Assembly: GCA_030145015.1 (NCBI GenBank)
Contig: JAQYWI010000262.1
Span: forward strand, 1 to 6,241
Direction of reading: 5' to 3'
Source of the DNA: Desulfobacterales bacterium
GTDB lineage: Bacteria; Desulfobacterota; Desulfobacteria; Desulfobacterales; JAHEIW01
Length of the DNA: 6,241 nucleotides
The stretch's first letter is position 1, and each line of letters begins with the position of its first letter. The translations under genes and the position numbers were made by a program. Under the pieces are notes generated by a model. The model had not been told where the DNA came from. It was given only the letters and a program-made list of their open reading frames with translations, and ran no database searches. Shown piece by piece: positions 334 to 6,124 of the stretch.

Positions 334-1092
334 ATGGCACGGATCATCTGTATAGCCAACCAGAAAGGTGGCGTCGGGAAGACGACTACAGCAATAAACC
401 TGTCAGCCGCTTTAGCGGCTTCCGAAAAAAGAACGCTGTTAGTCGATTGCGACCCCCAGGCAAACGCGACCTCGGGACTTGGCATCGATAGGTCCAAAAT
501 AGAAAAAACACTTTATCACGGTATGCTGGGCCGGGCCGGCGCTGCAAACCTGATTGTAGACAGCGAAATAGCCTCCCTGAAGGTGATTCCTTCCGGTGTC
601 GAATTGATCGGGTTTGAAGTCGAGATGATATCCGACCCCAATCGCGAAAAGGCGTTAAAAAACCTTGTTTCCGGCCTGCACAACGCTTTTGACTATATCT
701 TTCTGGATTGCCCGCCTTCCTTGAGTCTCCTCACGGTGAATGCCCTCACCGCCGCCGATTCGTTGTTGATACCGCTACAAGCTGAGTACTATGCCTTAGA
801 AGGATTGGGACAACTTCTCAATACGGTAAAACGCATTAAGCGAAACTTGAATCCGGAATTAACCATCGCCGGAATTTTACTGACGATGTTTGATAAGCGC
901 ACCAATCTCGCCTATCAGGTTGCAGAAGAAGCAGAGAAATATTTCAAGGATCTGGTTTTTAAAACGATGGTGCCGAGAAATGTCCGCTTAAGCGAGGCGC
1001 CAAGCTTTGGTAAACCCATATTGCTCTATGATGCCACCTCCGCCGGCGCTCAAAGCTATTTTGAGCTGGCGAAAGAAATATTAAGAAATTAA
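334..1092 (+). CDS. parA: ParA/Soj chromosome-partitioning ATPase
   Basis: Cytoplasmic deviant-Walker ATPase that dimerises on ATP, binds DNA non-specifically and is released by ParB, driving segregation of the replication-origin region. At 252 residues it is the usual length of chromosomal Soj-type proteins and lacks the N-terminal helix-turn-helix of long plasmid ParAs. The deviant Walker A loop is KGGVGKTT at residues 11-18, with signature lysine K11 and K16; the A' motif LLVDCDPQANAT is at 35-46 with catalytic D40; Walker B is FLDCPPS at 123-129 with D125. The conserved C-terminal segment with PRNVRLSEAPSFGKP starts at P214. It is followed by parB after 79 bases, the classic order, and probably shares its transcript. 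No truncation or frameshift is seen. Confidence 0.98.
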   Translation: MARIICIANQKGGVGKTTTAINLSAALAASEKRTLLVDCDPQANATSGLGIDRSKIEKTLYHGMLGRAGAANLIVDSEIASLKVIPSGVELIGFEVEMISDPNREKALKNLVSGLHNAFDYIFLDCPPSLSLLTVNALTAADSLLIPLQAEYYALEGLGQLLNTVKRIKRNLNPELTIAGILLTMFDKRTNLAYQVAEEAEKYFKDLVFKTMVPRNVRLSEAPSFGKPILLYDATSAGAQSYFELAKEILRN

Positions 1093-1119: not shown

Positions 1120-1161
1120 ATCGCGGTTATTGGTTAATCGTAATTGAAATTGCAAATTGTT

Positions 1162-1166
1162 GGGGA
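1162..1166 (+). promoter_or_regulatory. Ribosome binding site that fixes the parB start
   Basis: GGGGA lies 5 bases before the ATG at 1172. An in-frame TTG at 1157 would add five residues (MLGKH), but it overlaps this site and has no Shine-Dalgarno of its own, so ATG 1172 is preferred. Confidence 0.6.
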
Positions 1167-1171
1167 AACAC

Positions 1172-2080
1172 ATGCCGAAGAGAAAAATCACCGAAACGTC
1201 TGCGAGCGGACCCGCCAGACGCAAAAAAGTGGCCCTGGGAAGAGGTTTGGGCGCACTCATTCCCGAAATTGAAGAATCCGATGAACGCCCCCGGGATTTT
1301 TTCTATTGCGATATAACGCTTATTCGACCCAACCGATTCCAGCCACGCCTTCAGTTTCCCAAGGATGAACTGGATGAGCTTAGCCAATCGATTAAAGAAC
1401 AGGGCATTCTGCAACCGCTGTTAGTCCGTGAAGAAGATGACGGTTACGAGCTGATTGCCGGCGAAAGACGTCTGCGCGCTGCTAAAAAAGCCGGATTTGC
1501 CCAGGTACCGGTCGTCATCAAGCGCATTGGCGATTCCAAATTGCTGGAGCTGTCGATTGTCGAAAACATTCAACGTGCTAATTTTAACCCCATCGAAGAA
1601 TCTGAAGCCTACCACCGTTTAATCACCGAGTTCAATCTTACCCAGGATCAGGCGGCAACCCGGGTCGGAAAAAGTCGCTCGGCGATCGCCAATTTTTTAA
1701 GGCTCCGTCAGCTGCCCGAGCAAATCAAGGCCAGCATACTGGACGCATCGTTGACAATGGGCCATGCCAGAGCGCTGCTGGGTATCGAAAACTCCGCCCA
1801 GCAATTGGCCGCATGGCGGGCCGTGGTTAAAAAGGGCCTTTCGGTCAGAGAAACCGAAAACCTTATTCGATCCTTGAAAGATGAGAAGAAAAAACCAAAA
1901 GCGGCAAGAAAAAGCTCTGAGGACCTTTACCTCATGGGTCTGGCTGAGGATCTCTCGCGCCATTTTGGCACCAAAATCATGATTAAAAAGCGGGGCCAAA
2001 GGGGTAAGGTTGAAATCGAATTCTACAGCAACGATGATTTGGACCGCCTGATTAATCGTCTCCAACAAACCAAAATATAG
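1172..2080 (+). CDS. parB: ParB/Spo0J chromosome-partitioning protein
   Basis: DNA-binding CTPase clamp that loads at parS sites, spreads along DNA and stimulates ParA. From ATG 1172 it has 302 residues, normal for chromosomal ParB. In order: a basic N-terminal tail with the ParA-stimulating signature (ALGRGLGALIPE, about 21-32); the ParB/Srx nucleotide-binding domain with IRPNRFQPR (51-59), the GERR motif (97-100) that contacts CTP phosphates, and ENIQR (131-135); a helix-turn-helix for parS recognition (about 157-178, TQDQAATRVGKSRSAIANFL); a Lys/Glu-rich linker (about 235-250); and a C-terminal dimerisation domain ending in LDRLINRLQQTKI. It lies 79 bases after parA in the same direction. 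All key motifs look intact. Confidence 0.98.
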   Translation: MPKRKITETSASGPARRKKVALGRGLGALIPEIEESDERPRDFFYCDITLIRPNRFQPRLQFPKDELDELSQSIKEQGILQPLLVREEDDGYELIAGERRLRAAKKAGFAQVPVVIKRIGDSKLLELSIVENIQRANFNPIEESEAYHRLITEFNLTQDQAATRVGKSRSAIANFLRLRQLPEQIKASILDASLTMGHARALLGIENSAQQLAAWRAVVKKGLSVRETENLIRSLKDEKKKPKAARKSSEDLYLMGLAEDLSRHFGTKIMIKKRGQRGKVEIEFYSNDDLDRLINRLQQTKI

Positions 2081-2259: not shown

Positions 2260-2287
2260 CGGACGTAATTAACTGTTGACGCATGAA

Positions 2288-2809
2288 ATGTCCATTCATA
2301 TCATCATAGATGGATATAATCTTATCCGCCAATCGACAACCCTTAGCCGGCTGGATCAACAGGATATCATGCTGGGCAGAGATGCCCTGGTGGAAATGTT
2401 GGCGGCCTACCGGAAGATAAAACCGCATCGCATTACGGTGGTCTTTGACGGCCACCATAGCCCGGCTTTTTCACAGGCACGCGACCAAAAAAAGGGTATT
2501 GCCATTCGGTTTTCCCGCAGGGGAGAATCCGCTGATGATCTGATCAAGCGCATGGCACTCAAGGAAAGAGAAAAGGCGCTGGTGGTCAGCTCAGATCTGG
2601 AAGTCGCCAATTCGGCGGCCGCCCATGGAGCGGCAACAATCAGCGCGCCGCAGTTTGAAGGCAAAATTGGAATGGCCGTTCAGCTCGACGGTCTGAAAAT
2701 CGAAGCCGAAGATCGTGCGGGCTGGACCCCAACCACAAAAAAAAAGGGCCCTTCCCGCAGACTTTCCAAAAAACAGCGCCGCAACCGCATGAAAATAAAA
2801 AAGCTCTGA
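2288..2809 (+). CDS. YacP/Rae1-like NYN-domain protein, predicted ribonuclease
   Basis: Probable PIN-like metal-dependent ribonuclease of the YacP group; the Bacillus subtilis member, Rae1, cleaves mRNA on the ribosome. From ATG 2288 it has 173 residues, a typical length. Acidic residues expected of the fold are visible: IIIDGYNLI at 5-13 (D8, N11), VVFDGHHS at 51-58 (D54), the SADDLI pair D83/D84 that follows the strand FSRRGE, and VVSSDLEV at 99-106 (D103). The C-terminus is strongly basic (TTKKKG, then RRLSKKQRRNRMKIKKL), suggesting RNA or ribosome contact. The start is uncertain: an in-frame TTG at 2276 would add four residues and neither has a good Shine-Dalgarno; ATG is preferred because the first beta strand follows at once. 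The stop is one base from the next ATG. The exact RNA target is unknown. Confidence 0.85.
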   Translation: MSIHIIIDGYNLIRQSTTLSRLDQQDIMLGRDALVEMLAAYRKIKPHRITVVFDGHHSPAFSQARDQKKGIAIRFSRRGESADDLIKRMALKEREKALVVSSDLEVANSAAAHGAATISAPQFEGKIGMAVQLDGLKIEAEDRAGWTPTTKKKGPSRRLSKKQRRNRMKIKKL

Positions 2810-2810
2810 A

Positions 2811-4550
2811 ATGAAAATCGTAATTGCCAAAACTTCAGGATTTTGCATGGGCGTTCGCAGAGCCGTTGAAATGGTACTGGATTCTCCCGAAGAGCGGCCC
2901 AATCCGATTTCGACATATGGTTCGCTGATCCATAATCCTCAGGTTATTGAAATATTGGAAGAAAAAGGCATATCCGCTTTCACCGAAATCCCGCAACAGG
3001 GCTCCGGCACCGTACTTATCCGGGCGCATGGGGTTCCGCCGCAAACAAAAGACCAGCTTGAAGAAGCCGGTTTCAAGGTCGTCGATGCAACCTGCCCCCG
3101 GGTCATTAGAGTCCAGACGATTATCAAAAAGCACTTTGGAAAGGGGTATGCAACGATTATTGTGGGTGATAAAAATCATCCGGAAGTTATGGGATTACGG
3201 GGTTATGGCGGTGATAAGGGATATGTCGTTAAAAATGCGGATGAACTTCGAGCGCTTCCCGCGTTTGAAAATGCCATCATTGTCGCTCAAACCACGCTCA
3301 ATACGAATCTGTGGCAGTCTATAAAAAAATGGACTGCTGATCACCACCCGCATTATAAAATTTTTGAGACGATTTGTGATTCCACCGAAGGCCGTCAGGC
3401 CGAAGTTCAACGACTGACTGAGTCGGTCGATGCGGTTATTGTGGTGGGCGGCCGCAATAGCGGAAATACGAAAAGATTGGTTGAAATTGCACGCCAGAGC
3501 GGCAAACCCGCGTTTCACATTGAAAGCGAAACGGATCTTAGCGCAATTGATTTGGAAGCGCTGTCCTCAGCCCGCCAAATCGGAATAACGGCCGGCGCAT
3601 CCACGCCCAACTGGGTCATCAAAAAAGTCTACCGGGCCCTGGAAGCGTTACTTTTCAAACGCAAGCAGGGTTGGCGGCGGCTTCTGTTCGAGGTTCAAAG
3701 AACGCTTTTGCTCACCAATATTTATGTGTCACTCGGCGCCGGTGCATTGTGCTATGCCTGTGCCAAGCTTCAGGGAATTCATCAGACCTTTCCCTATATT
3801 TTGATCTCCATGCTGTATGTTCAATCTATGCATATCCTCAATCATCTAACCGACACCCGCGCCGACCGGTACAACGATCCGGATAGAGCCAATTTTTACG
3901 ATAATAACAAAACCCTGCTGACAATTCTAGCGACGCTTGCGGGCGGATCCGGGCTGATCATCGCCTATAGTATCGGTATATTTCCTTTTACGACTTTGTT
4001 GATCATGAGCCTCATGGGACTCTCGTACAACCTCAGGATTGTACCGCAGTGGCTGACAACCATCAAATATCGCAGGTTACGGGATCTGCCCGGCTCAAAG
4101 ACACTTTTGATTGCCATGGCCTGGGGGATTGTGACGGCCGTCCTGCCCCCCCTGTCCAAATTCGGGACCGTTAATTGGATAAATATACTGGTGGCGTTGT
4201 GGGCGATCGGGATCGTGTTTGTCAGAACCGCCTTCTTTGACATTCTGGATATGCAGGGTGATCGGCTTGTGGGCAAAGAGACCATCCCCATTCTGTTGGG
4301 AGAAAAACGGTCGATGCGTATCCTCAAGATAATATTGACTGGATTGATCGCCACACTAGTTGTCACGAGTATTTTTCAACTGACCTCAAGCCTGGGATTT
4401 GCGCTGACCCTCTGCCCTATTTTTATTTCGATTATTATTCTGGCTTATGAACGCGCCCAGATGTTCCCGGGTATTCGATTAGAATTTTTGCTTGAAACCC
4501 AGTTTTTCCTGGCGGGTGTGATTTCCTTCTTTTGGATTCTGCTCACATAG
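2811..4550 (+). CDS. ispH: Fusion of IspH (HMBPP reductase) and a UbiA-family membrane prenyltransferase
   Basis: A 579-residue two-domain protein. Residues 1-281 are a complete IspH, the [4Fe-4S] enzyme that reduces HMBPP to IPP and DMAPP. Cluster cysteines are C12 (GFCMGV), C95 (DATCPRV) and C189 (ETICDSTEGRQ); substrate residues include H41, H73 (RAHGVPP), H123 and E125 (NHPEVMG), T161/T162, S217/N219 and S264 (TAGASTPNW). A short basic linker (283-291) leads to a UbiA domain (about 292-579) with roughly nine hydrophobic segments. Its first Asp motif is N344, D348, D352; its second is D477-ILD-D484 read as D477, D480, D484 in DILDMQGD, followed by GKETIPILLG. These bind Mg-polyprenyl diphosphate. 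The usual Asp after the first-motif Asn is replaced by H345. The frame is open throughout with no stop or clear internal start at the junction. The aromatic acceptor (quinone, heme or other) cannot be told. It starts one base after the NYN gene and lacks a clear Shine-Dalgarno, suggesting translational coupling. Confidence 0.95.
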   Translation: MKIVIAKTSGFCMGVRRAVEMVLDSPEERPNPISTYGSLIHNPQVIEILEEKGISAFTEIPQQGSGTVLIRAHGVPPQTKDQLEEAGFKVVDATCPRVIRVQTIIKKHFGKGYATIIVGDKNHPEVMGLRGYGGDKGYVVKNADELRALPAFENAIIVAQTTLNTNLWQSIKKWTADHHPHYKIFETICDSTEGRQAEVQRLTESVDAVIVVGGRNSGNTKRLVEIARQSGKPAFHIESETDLSAIDLEALSSARQIGITAGASTPNWVIKKVYRALEALLFKRKQGWRRLLFEVQRTLLLTNIYVSLGAGALCYACAKLQGIHQTFPYILISMLYVQSMHILNHLTDTRADRYNDPDRANFYDNNKTLLTILATLAGGSGLIIAYSIGIFPFTTLLIMSLMGLSYNLRIVPQWLTTIKYRRLRDLPGSKTLLIAMAWGIVTAVLPPLSKFGTVNWINILVALWAIGIVFVRTAFFDILDMQGDRLVGKETIPILLGEKRSMRILKIILTGLIATLVVTSIFQLTSSLGFALTLCPIFISIIILAYERAQMFPGIRLEFLLETQFFLAGVISFFWILLT

Positions 4551-4640
4551 AGGTTCAGGGTTCTGGGTTCAGGGGTTCAAGGTTAAAACAACCCAGAACC
4601 TTTGAACCTTGAACCTTTGAACCCACTTATACCTGAACCT
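4551..4640. repeat. GGTTCA-type repeat array with nested inverted repeats, between convergent genes
   Basis: The sequence starts right after the ispH-ubiA stop. The first half is built of GGTTC(A/T) units about 7 bases apart on the plus strand; the second half carries the reverse complement (GAACC) units. Several exact inverted pairs exist: AGGTTCAGG (4551-4559) with CCTGAACCT (4632-4640); GGTTCTGGGTT (4559-4569) with AACCCAGAACC (4590-4600); GGTTCAAGGTT (4574-4584) with AACCTTGAACC (4605-4615). They overlap, so alternative stems compete. Position between convergent genes suggests transcript-end protection or bidirectional termination, but no clear U-run is present. Simple-repeat slippage is a likely origin. 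Confidence 0.75.
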
Positions 4641-4673: not shown

Positions 4674-5318
4674 TTAGGAGCGATCTTTTTTTAACTTAAA
4701 TTCGGGTTCTTTTCCGGCCGCCAGTCGTTTCAGATTGTCCTGGTGACGGATAAAAATAAAAAAGGCGATTATACAGGCGGCGGCGAGCATCATGACAAAA
4801 TCGGTTGTTAACCATATCGCCGCCGGCAGAGTAGCCGCGGCAGCCAGCGATCCGACTGAAACGCGCCGCACCACAAATAGCATCACAATGAAAACTCCGA
4901 ATGCGACCAGAATCGCCGAAGGGGAAACCACCGTAAAACACCCGGCGGCAGTGGCAACGCCTTTGCCGCCATCGCGAAATTTTAAATACAGGGGATAAAG
5001 ATGCCCTAAAAATGCGGCCAGTGCGACTCCCGCCAAAAAAATATCGGCGGAGCCATTGGCGGAGCCAAATGCCAAAAGCGCCAGATAAACAGGAATGGCT
5101 CCTTTTAAGAAATCGCCGCTCAACGTCAGCAAACCCGGCAGTGCGCCGGCTTCCCGCATGACATTAGTCGCCCCGATATTATGGCTGCCCTTTAAGCGGA
5201 TATCCTGGCTGGAGAAGATGCGGGCTAAAATCAGGCCCCAGGGGATGGAGCCCAGCAGATAGGCCAATATCAGCAGGCCGCCGAATAAAAGCTGAGAATT
5301 ATGATTCGTCATTGGCAT
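4674..5318 (-). CDS. plsY: Acyl-phosphate:glycerol-3-phosphate acyltransferase PlsY
   Basis: Integral inner-membrane enzyme that transfers an acyl chain from acyl-phosphate (made by PlsX) to the sn-1 position of glycerol-3-phosphate, the first step of phospholipid synthesis. It has 214 residues, close to the family norm of about 200. The family motifs are all present: GSIPWG (23-28); GSHNIGATNVMRE (44-56); GDFLKG (68-73); GHLYP (105-109) with KFRDGGKGVAT (113-123); and RHQDNLKRLAAGKE (191-204), followed by a short basic tail. Hydrophobic helices alternate with these loops. ATG 5318 is chosen with a weak GAG 9 bases upstream; a second ATG two codons in (5312) is possible. It is convergent with ispH-ubiA, and plsX is not in the window. 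Confidence 0.97.
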   Translation of the reverse strand: MPMTNHNSQLLFGGLLILAYLLGSIPWGLILARIFSSQDIRLKGSHNIGATNVMREAGALPGLLTLSGDFLKGAIPVYLALLAFGSANGSADIFLAGVALAAFLGHLYPLYLKFRDGGKGVATAAGCFTVVSPSAILVAFGVFIVMLFVVRRVSVGSLAAAATLPAAIWLTTDFVMMLAAACIIAFFIFIRHQDNLKRLAAGKEPEFKLKKDRS

Positions 5319-5393: not shown

Positions 5394-5575
5394 AAATGAG
5401 CTAAAATTAAAAATGAGCTAAAATGCCTAAAATTGAAGAATTAAACCCGTCGAGGGCCTCCCTTCGAGGGCCTCAGGGTCGAACGACAGGGTCGAACGAT
5501 CATATTTATAAAGAAAGATAGAGCGCTGCGCGAGCGAAACCATAACTTTAGGCACTTTAGCTCATTTTAGGCATT
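5394..5575. repeat. Composite repeat element with 24-bp inverted arms and internal tandem repeats
   Basis: This element fills more than half of the 340-base gap between plsY and the Smr gene. Arms at 5411-5434 and 5544-5567 are inverted copies agreeing at 22 of 24 positions, each made of the words ATGAGCTAAA and TGCCTAAA. The left arm is preceded by another exact copy of AAATGAGCTAAAAT (5394-5407 and 5411-5424, a 17-base step); the right arm is followed by an extra inverted TGCCTAAA unit, TTTAGGCA at 5566-5573. Between the arms are two copies of TCGAGGGCCTC (5450-5460, 5464-5474), two adjacent copies of CAGGGTCGAACGA (5474-5486, 5487-5499) and a GC-rich hairpin CGCT-gcgcg-AGCG near 5524-5536. 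No open reading frame is evident, so it resembles a non-coding dispersed element. Outside it, 5319-5393 holds only the possible plsY promoter and 5581-5658 is a T-rich leader with nothing recognisable. Confidence 0.75.
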
Positions 5576-5658: not shown

Positions 5659-5934
5659 ATGGATCCGATTCGAATTCCAATCGAAGATGTCCTGGACCTG
5701 CATACATTTCGACCGCGAGATATAGCGGATCTTTTGGACGAATATTTCGCCGAATGCATTAAGGCCGGCATACCATCCGTGCGCGTAATTCACGGCAAGG
5801 GCAAAGGCATCCAAAAAAAACAGGTGCACAAGATTTTAAAAAAACACCCTTTGGTCCAAAACTTCAGCGATGCACCCCCCGAAGCCGGCGGTTGGGGGGC
5901 CACATTGGTGCAGTTGCGACAACCCTTGCGCTAG
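5659..5934 (+). CDS. Stand-alone Smr-domain protein, predicted nucleic-acid endonuclease
   Basis: A 91-residue protein that is almost entirely one Smr domain, the module named for the MutS2 C-terminus and known as a DNA-nicking or RNA-cleaving nuclease in several proteins. Visible signatures: VLDLHTFRPRDI (11-22) with the LDxH motif (L12, D13, H15); VRVIHGKGKGIQKKQVHKIL (41-60) with the HGKGxG loop; and the C-terminal GGWGATLVQL (77-86). No MutS2 ATPase domains or zinc-binding segment precede it. The start is the ATG at 5659; no Shine-Dalgarno is visible, and an in-frame TGA at 5623-5625 limits any extension to 11 residues with no better start. It faces a repeat element upstream and a possible MITE downstream, so it appears to be a single-gene transcript. 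The substrate is unknown. Confidence 0.92.
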   Translation: MDPIRIPIEDVLDLHTFRPRDIADLLDEYFAECIKAGIPSVRVIHGKGKGIQKKQVHKILKKHPLVQNFSDAPPEAGGWGATLVQLRQPLR

Positions 5935-5966: not shown

Positions 5967-6124
5967 TGTTGTGTCCTGCAAATAAGTTGCAAAATGATTG
6001 TCACTCCCGCGCAGGCGGGAGTCCAGTTCAAAGACGTCTGGATTCCCGCCTGCGCGGGAATGACGGATGGATAGCACGCCTCAGCACTTAATAATATTTT
6101 TGACAATATTGCTTGGACACAACA
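5967..6124. mobile_element. Possible MITE-like element bounded by inverted TGTTGTGTCC
   Basis: TGTTGTGTCC (5967-5976) and its exact reverse complement GGACACAACA (6115-6124) bracket a 158-base non-coding segment. Inward of the 10-bp exact ends the two sides remain loosely similar (GCAA, then a CAAAA-type run) for roughly 20 more bases when aligned as inverted copies. This is the pattern of a miniature inverted-repeat element or a remnant of an IS end pair. No clear target-site duplication is visible, and no transposase is present. A GC-rich palindrome sits inside. Confidence 0.4.
6000..6064. repeat. REP-like GC-rich palindrome
   Basis: Arms at 6000-6026 and 6038-6064 are inverted copies agreeing at 25 of 27 positions around an 11-base loop. 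Each arm is itself palindromic (TCCCGCGCAGGCGGGA; TTCCCGCCTGCGCGGGAA), so it can form either one long hairpin or two small ones. This TTCCCGC-n-GCGGGAA type of unit with a flanking TCCAG/CTGGA is a widespread intergenic repeat in many proteobacteria and is similar in form to the dRS3 units of Neisseria. Lying between the convergent Smr and PPIase genes, it can act as a transcript-end stabiliser or terminator. Confidence 0.8.

Follow-up and report, generated by a model that had tools for sequence, protein, structure and literature searches.

The protein encoded by a single 579-codon frame (2811..4550, + strand) in the 6,241-nucleotide stretch of Desulfobacterales DNA analysed here (contig JAQYWI010000262.1 of assembly GCA_030145015.1, hereafter the window) joins IspH to a membrane domain of the UbiA fold, and both halves are complete. 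Judged from its sequence, this protein is the host's 4-hydroxy-3-methylbut-2-enyl diphosphate (HMBPP) reductase, i.e., IspH, with a membrane domain of this fold attached at its C-terminus. The new finding is that most of the sampled fusions of this kind have lost metal-binding residues needed by the UbiA enzymes studied to date, and classical Mg-dependent prenyl transfer does not appear to be the conserved role of the membrane half. The reading that we prefer, with a probability of about 0.5, is that the UbiA half would serve IspH as a conserved membrane anchor with a ligand pocket, prenyl transfer being optional.

The IspH half (residues 1-281, 2811..3653) contains the three cluster cysteines, C12 (2844-2846), C95 (3093-3095) and C189 (3375-3377), and is also assigned to IspH by its score with the curated family model and by its fold. 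A basic linker with a short helix precedes the first membrane helix (residues 281-303, 3651..3719; six K/R and one D/E, helix at 288-302) and leads into the UbiA-fold half (residues 292-579, 3684..4547), which scores above the Pfam UbiA cut-off and has nine predicted membrane helices; all these features lie on the + strand, as do the following ones. The motif I region (3831..3866) holds the family-specific H341 together with N344, D348 and D352, the last three of which hhalign pairs with the N, D and D of non-fused UbiAs. The motif II region (4224..4262) holds the family-specific R472 with D477, D480 and D484. The catalytic ligands of UbiA enzymes, an N and a D in motif I and a pair of D residues in motif II, are all present in the window as N344, D348, D480 and D484, and two DXXXD repeats can be read at 348/352 and 480/484. 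A pocket tyrosine, Y406 (4026..4028), is the likely equivalent of Y139 of AfUbiA (PMC4106721). A PDB search with the UbiA half gave no sequence relative at E up to 1, and the fold is accordingly matched through predicted models. None of the NCBIfam models of quinone enzymes reaches its cut-off with this half: no MqnP model is listed at E 0.001 and the MenA model gives 18.8 of 555 bits. EboC, a UbiA-like protein of the ebo operon (PMC5133447), was also weighed, and no EboC model is found among the NCBIfam matches at E 0.001, the inclusion of such a model in the library being unchecked.

The fusion itself is an ordinary kind of observation, since it was already published in 2015 by Rao, O'Dowd, Li, Wang and Oldfield, who described 47 IspH-UbiA fusions, primarily from Desulfobacterales (PMC4746011). 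The first-pass annotation, made from the letters of the window, had pointed to ispH entries of similar length in some Desulfobacterales, and it was right in this. As in those fusions, in the window protein the UbiA half is C-terminal to IspH, the bacterial order is the same, nine helices are predicted, and the relatives are sulfate reducers. In that paper, prenyltransferase activity is argued from two DXXXD repeats, the function of the UbiA half is left open, the hosts are said to have separate UbiA/MenA proteins as well, and an active full-length protein was not achieved (PMC4746011). The same source describes IspH-RPS1 (S1 domain) fusions of anaerobes, in which IspH likewise forms the N-terminal part of a long polypeptide; their partner consists of RNA-binding S1 repeats, whereas that of the window protein is a membrane domain. 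No later paper on the IspH-UbiA fusion was found by title or abstract start in the open-licence literature, outside which most subscription papers lie, and no paper on pseudoenzymes of the UbiA superfamily was found in that literature.

In contrast to the 47 published sequences, 108 clear and six divergent fusions (114 of 296 genomes) were counted here among evenly sampled genomes of the phylum to which Desulfonema magnum belongs, most of the sampled fusions missing one or more Mg ligands. The profile of the UbiA half matched 113 of the 296 genomes; the loci of 110 of these were fetched, and both halves lie on one frame in 108 of them, three of which reach the locus end. An additional fused frame, with a sub-threshold UbiA match, is present in genome G220, and five sampled genomes of one genus (G036, G072, G099, G167 and G207, hereafter the G072 genus) have a strongly derived C-terminal half. 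A further candidate, G023, was rejected, as its frame ends with IspH and its extra length is an upstream extension. A scan of 84,980 species genomes with two patterns yielded 266 stretches whose product is related to the UbiA half; of these, the 80 best were kept, and they bear the titles Desulfobacterales, Deltaproteobacteria or similar, three being plain 'Proteobacteria'. In a search for stand-alone relatives, the 120 best of 309 matches to the UbiA half were mostly pieces, many with part of IspH, and the 120 best matches of a distant-fusion query all contain both Pfam domains. Two among the latter carry names outside the Desulfobacterota-type labels, 'Pseudomonadota' and 'Candidatus Edwardsbacteria'.

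The fused frame is retained at 188 of the 190 loci collected. At one locus (L191) the fusion is severed by a contig end and cannot be judged; at another (L229) an intact IspH half is followed by a UbiA half broken after its first helix, near the equivalent of residue 323, the sole such loss among the 190. A frame broken by a stop or a shift between residues 281 and 300, which would have spoken against the in-frame fusion proposed by the first-pass annotation, was seen at none of them, and this proposal is confirmed for 2811-4550. No whole genome of the window is available in the genome collection searched, which would leave room for an assembly artefact or mis-joined frames; this explanation is refuted by many independent assemblies that show the same architecture, among them the complete Desulfonema magnum chromosome NZ_CP061800.

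AfUbiA binds its two Mg ions through N68 and D72 and through D198 and D202, and changes of the equivalent ligands in EcMenA abolish or nearly abolish function (PMC4106721). When the profiles of 102 fused halves and of 23 non-fused UbiA proteins of the TIGR01475 and MenA types were aligned, N344, D348, D480 and D484 paired with invariant N, D, D and D columns. In the phylum sample (107 rows after L221, with a gap at two columns, was dropped from the 108), all four ligands are present in 39 fusions and at least one is missing in 68; N344 is retained in 97, D348 in 79, D480 in 65 and D484 in 105. Without seven divergent or incomplete rows (L134, L186, L219, L221, L226, L231 and L235; the weak match L234 was kept), the complete set is found in 39 of 101, with at least 13 state changes on the tree. 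The ligands appear, from these alignments, to have been lost piecemeal across the family. Both motif I ligands are gone in a clade of five (L047, L058, L061, L074 and L077), and G takes the place of D348 in the majority of close relatives that do not belong to the window's own clade. This replacement in the closest relatives had first suggested a motif I that is defunct family-wide, an idea that was dropped, as position 348 is D in 79 of 107 fusions of the even sample. By comparison, non-fused TIGR01475-type UbiAs of the same phylum (30 best matches and 20 lower-ranked ones from sample genomes with a fusion match) have the four-ligand pattern in 50 of 50. Positions 348 and 352 are both acidic in only 13 of 182 rows, a set from which the same seven rows were dropped and which counts a few genomes twice (e.g., L046 and L127). 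The two-DXXXD pattern is not general, and the published case for prenyl transfer, built on two intact Asp motifs, fails for most of the sampled family, though the domain is kept.

These counts bear directly on the alternative put forward by Rao et al. and by the first-pass annotation, according to which the UbiA half actively transfers prenyl groups to an unspecified acceptor and IspH feeds it, or partners that make its donor, at the membrane. We regard this as a serious if less probable alternative for the family: the window has the four ligands and Y406, as 39 of the 107 sampled fusions have the ligands, the membrane half is predicted to have the UbiA fold, D484, Y406 and N344 are highly conserved, and the published argument from the two DXXXD repeats (PMC4746011) points the same way. 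Against it stand the 68 of 107 fusions in which one or more ligands with an essential equivalent in EcMenA are missing (PMC4106721), the five-member clade devoid of both motif I ligands, whose ratio of nonsynonymous to synonymous substitution rates (dN/dS) is nevertheless about 0.1 in the two measurable pairs, and the separate TIGR01475- or MenA-type protein present in 10 of the 11 hosts examined. Because every ligand is present there, an active transferase is likelier for the window's own lineage than for the family, and Mg-dependent prenyl transfer is possible in that lineage. The working prenyltransferase of the first-pass annotation may hold for the window protein, which has the four Mg ligands, and is doubtful for the family.

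The IspH half is kept with its cluster cysteines invariant in all rows that cover them (C12 184/184, C95 185/185, C189 189/189), and 11 of the 12 IspH positions checked, cysteines included, are invariant where covered, S191 being the exception. In the UbiA half, D484, Y406, H341 and R472 are each kept in 100-102 of 102 rows. The non-fused set (n=23) has M or N at the column of H341 and F or V at that of R472, and H341, R472 and an acidic residue at 477 are absent from all 23. The near-invariance of H341, R472, Y406 and D484, together with the different residues of the non-fused proteins, suggests that the pocket region is still constrained and that its chemistry differs from that of non-fused UbiAs. 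With the quinone prenyltransferases MqnP, MenA and UbiA the window protein has in common the fold and N344, D348, D480 and D484 at equivalent columns; unlike them, it has no cut-off score with a quinone model and possesses H341, R472 and the acidic 477.

Selection on the UbiA half was followed in pairs chosen or filtered by dS, some of which are saturated. Most pairs measured show purifying selection on the UbiA half. The dN/dS of UbiA halves devoid of ligands is well below 1 in the pairs measured, and, the derived and motif-I-acid-free cases aside, that of the UbiA half is near the IspH value in most pairs. The G072 genus is a case of its own. It comprises 14 genomes of 1.1-1.8 Mb, with ispH in 13; the frames are of 546-563 amino acids in 11, and two leave the locus end inside the C-terminal half. 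This half (L291-L303) is a membrane half of about 265 residues with a residual 'YFQTDGFLP' at the place of motif II, and no Pfam UbiA match was found in the two members scanned. When compared with the fused UbiA halves by hhalign, it gives a score of 30.9, E 0.0014 and a probability of 17% (3% when only three sequences of the genus are used), the best of 30 block-shuffled alignments giving 18.1 and the reversed one 10.3; there was no hhalign match with non-fused UbiAs. Homology with the UbiA half is likely, not proven. Should the domain be the same, IspH would have retained, throughout this genus, a membrane half lacking most of the catalytic ligands.

It can also be argued that the UbiA half is a passenger, kept for folding or expression of the polypeptide and without a coupled function. 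The nearly unrecognisable and less constrained C-terminal half of the G072 genus, the milder loosening in the clade free of motif I acids, and the faster divergence of the UbiA halves (mean pairwise identity 0.32 vs 0.50 for the IspH halves) would fit such a role. We consider it improbable, as 188 of 190 loci retain the fused frame, most other pairs have similar dN/dS values in the two halves, and H341, Y406, R472 and D484 are near-invariant.

How the anchor-and-pocket arrangement would work can be outlined as follows. Through the UbiA half, IspH would be tethered at the cytoplasmic membrane, on its inner face; membrane anchoring of the final reaction of the methylerythritol phosphate (MEP) pathway, as proposed by the first-pass annotation, fits the predicted fold and topology. 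The retained pocket, made of N344, Y406 and D484 and of the family-specific H341 and R472, would bind a prenyl phosphate or a similar lipid. Isopentenyl diphosphate and dimethylallyl diphosphate would then be made at the membrane, or their output would be tuned by downstream prenyl lipids. A more specific version, which we hold to be unlikely, makes the UbiA half a built-in regulatory sensor of prenyl lipids within IspH, which would feed back on the last MEP enzyme or position it, Mg catalysis having been given up repeatedly while the pocket H341/N344/Y406/R472/D484 was kept. By analogy, it would be a covalent bacterial counterpart of the mammalian pair UBIAD1 and HMG-CoA reductase, which form a non-covalent complex, involve another enzyme and pathway, and sense by way of degradation; bacterial sensing is here hypothetical.

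Several points weigh against the anchor-and-pocket reading. The 50 control proteins were chosen by a family-model match, which favours regular, canonical sequences, and G occupies the D348 equivalent in at least two of the 23 separate UbiAs of the 11 host genomes examined more closely (L113 and L118), so this change is not unique to the fusion. An acidic residue stands at 348 or 352 in 86 of the 101 sampled rows, so that in some cases a ligand may have moved rather than been lost. The D348 of the window clade is nested inside a supported (0.987) clade with G348, the nearest nodes being weakly supported, and has probably been regained because the surrounding well-supported clade otherwise has G. 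Retention of D484 in 182/182, N344 in 170/182, D480 in 144/182 and Y406 in 186/189 rows exceeds the needs of a bare anchor and could mean altered catalysis, while H341 and R472 may be anion binders in a pocket for an anionic prenyl lipid. In the closest pairs of the clade without motif I acids, constraint on the UbiA half is weaker than on IspH (e.g., 0.15 vs 0.06), and in the listed pairs of the G072 genus dN/dS is 0.17-0.63 for the C-terminal half vs 0.07-0.21 for IspH; this weaker constraint also fits a slow loss of function. Finally, no biochemistry was found for either role of the UbiA half, anchor with pocket or transferase.

The fusion is usually the only IspH of its host. An ispH was found in 287 of the 296 sampled genomes, and the 110 with fetched loci have exactly one match in 106, two in G130, G216 (where the fusion itself is in pieces) and G249, and none in G256, at a contig end. 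The 11 host genomes examined more closely have one LYTB match in eight; G006 has a second partial match, masked, G007 has two fusions, and in G008 the second is in pieces. The two fusion copies of the metagenome-assembled G007 (L088 and L092) are different, perhaps reflecting a mixed bin. A separate UbiA above cut-off is present in 10 of the 11, of type TIGR01475 in five and TIGR00751 (MenA) in five, 20 of the 23 separate UbiAs having been scanned (L112, L118 and L120 were left out); in G007, the only separate UbiA is MenA-like and below cut-off. The TIGR01475 group, which we label 'MqnP-type', also matches MqnP models below their cut-offs. In L113 and L118, from genomes G004 and G011, motif I reads NDVVGYRSD. 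With these separate proteins in 10 of 11 hosts, a quinone enzyme was rejected as the main role of the fused UbiA half, and the coupling to a quinone suggested in the first-pass annotation is weakened.

The stop codon of a YacP-like NYN-domain gene (2276..2809, + strand; Pfam PF05991, first in-frame ATG at 2288; found in 54 of the 80 loci) lies one base ahead of the start codon of the fusion, and the two genes are likely co-translated. In the window they are adjacent, unlike in five relatives that were read (L010, L024, L043, L053 and L071), where a gene of 141-155 residues with VIDGQGGGIGS stands between yacP and the fusion. The recurring neighbourhood also includes parA (334..1092, +; 51/80 loci) and parB (1157..2080, +; 52/80) and, downstream, plsY, encoding glycerol-3-phosphate acyltransferase (4674..5318, - strand; TIGR00023 over cut-off; 39/80), and a Smr-domain gene (5659..5934, +; Pfam PF01713; 38/80). 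Strong intergenic inverted repeats lie at 6000-6064, 4564-4625 and 5410-5568, among them two 27-base arms with 93% complementarity and another pair around AAAATGCCTAAA; near 2160-2210 there is a GCCTAAA stretch of similar kind. No plasmid match was obtained for the downstream spacer of the window.

As metal-binding residues are lost in most sampled relatives, the membrane half may hold or regulate IspH rather than be an enzyme. The repeated loss of Mg ligands in a fused and mostly conserved half speaks directly for testing whether its role is non-enzymatic, and the survey of ligands names the residues and lineages worth comparing. If the sensor reading is true, these bacteria would have a built-in control of isoprenoid precursor supply, parallel to the mammalian control point.
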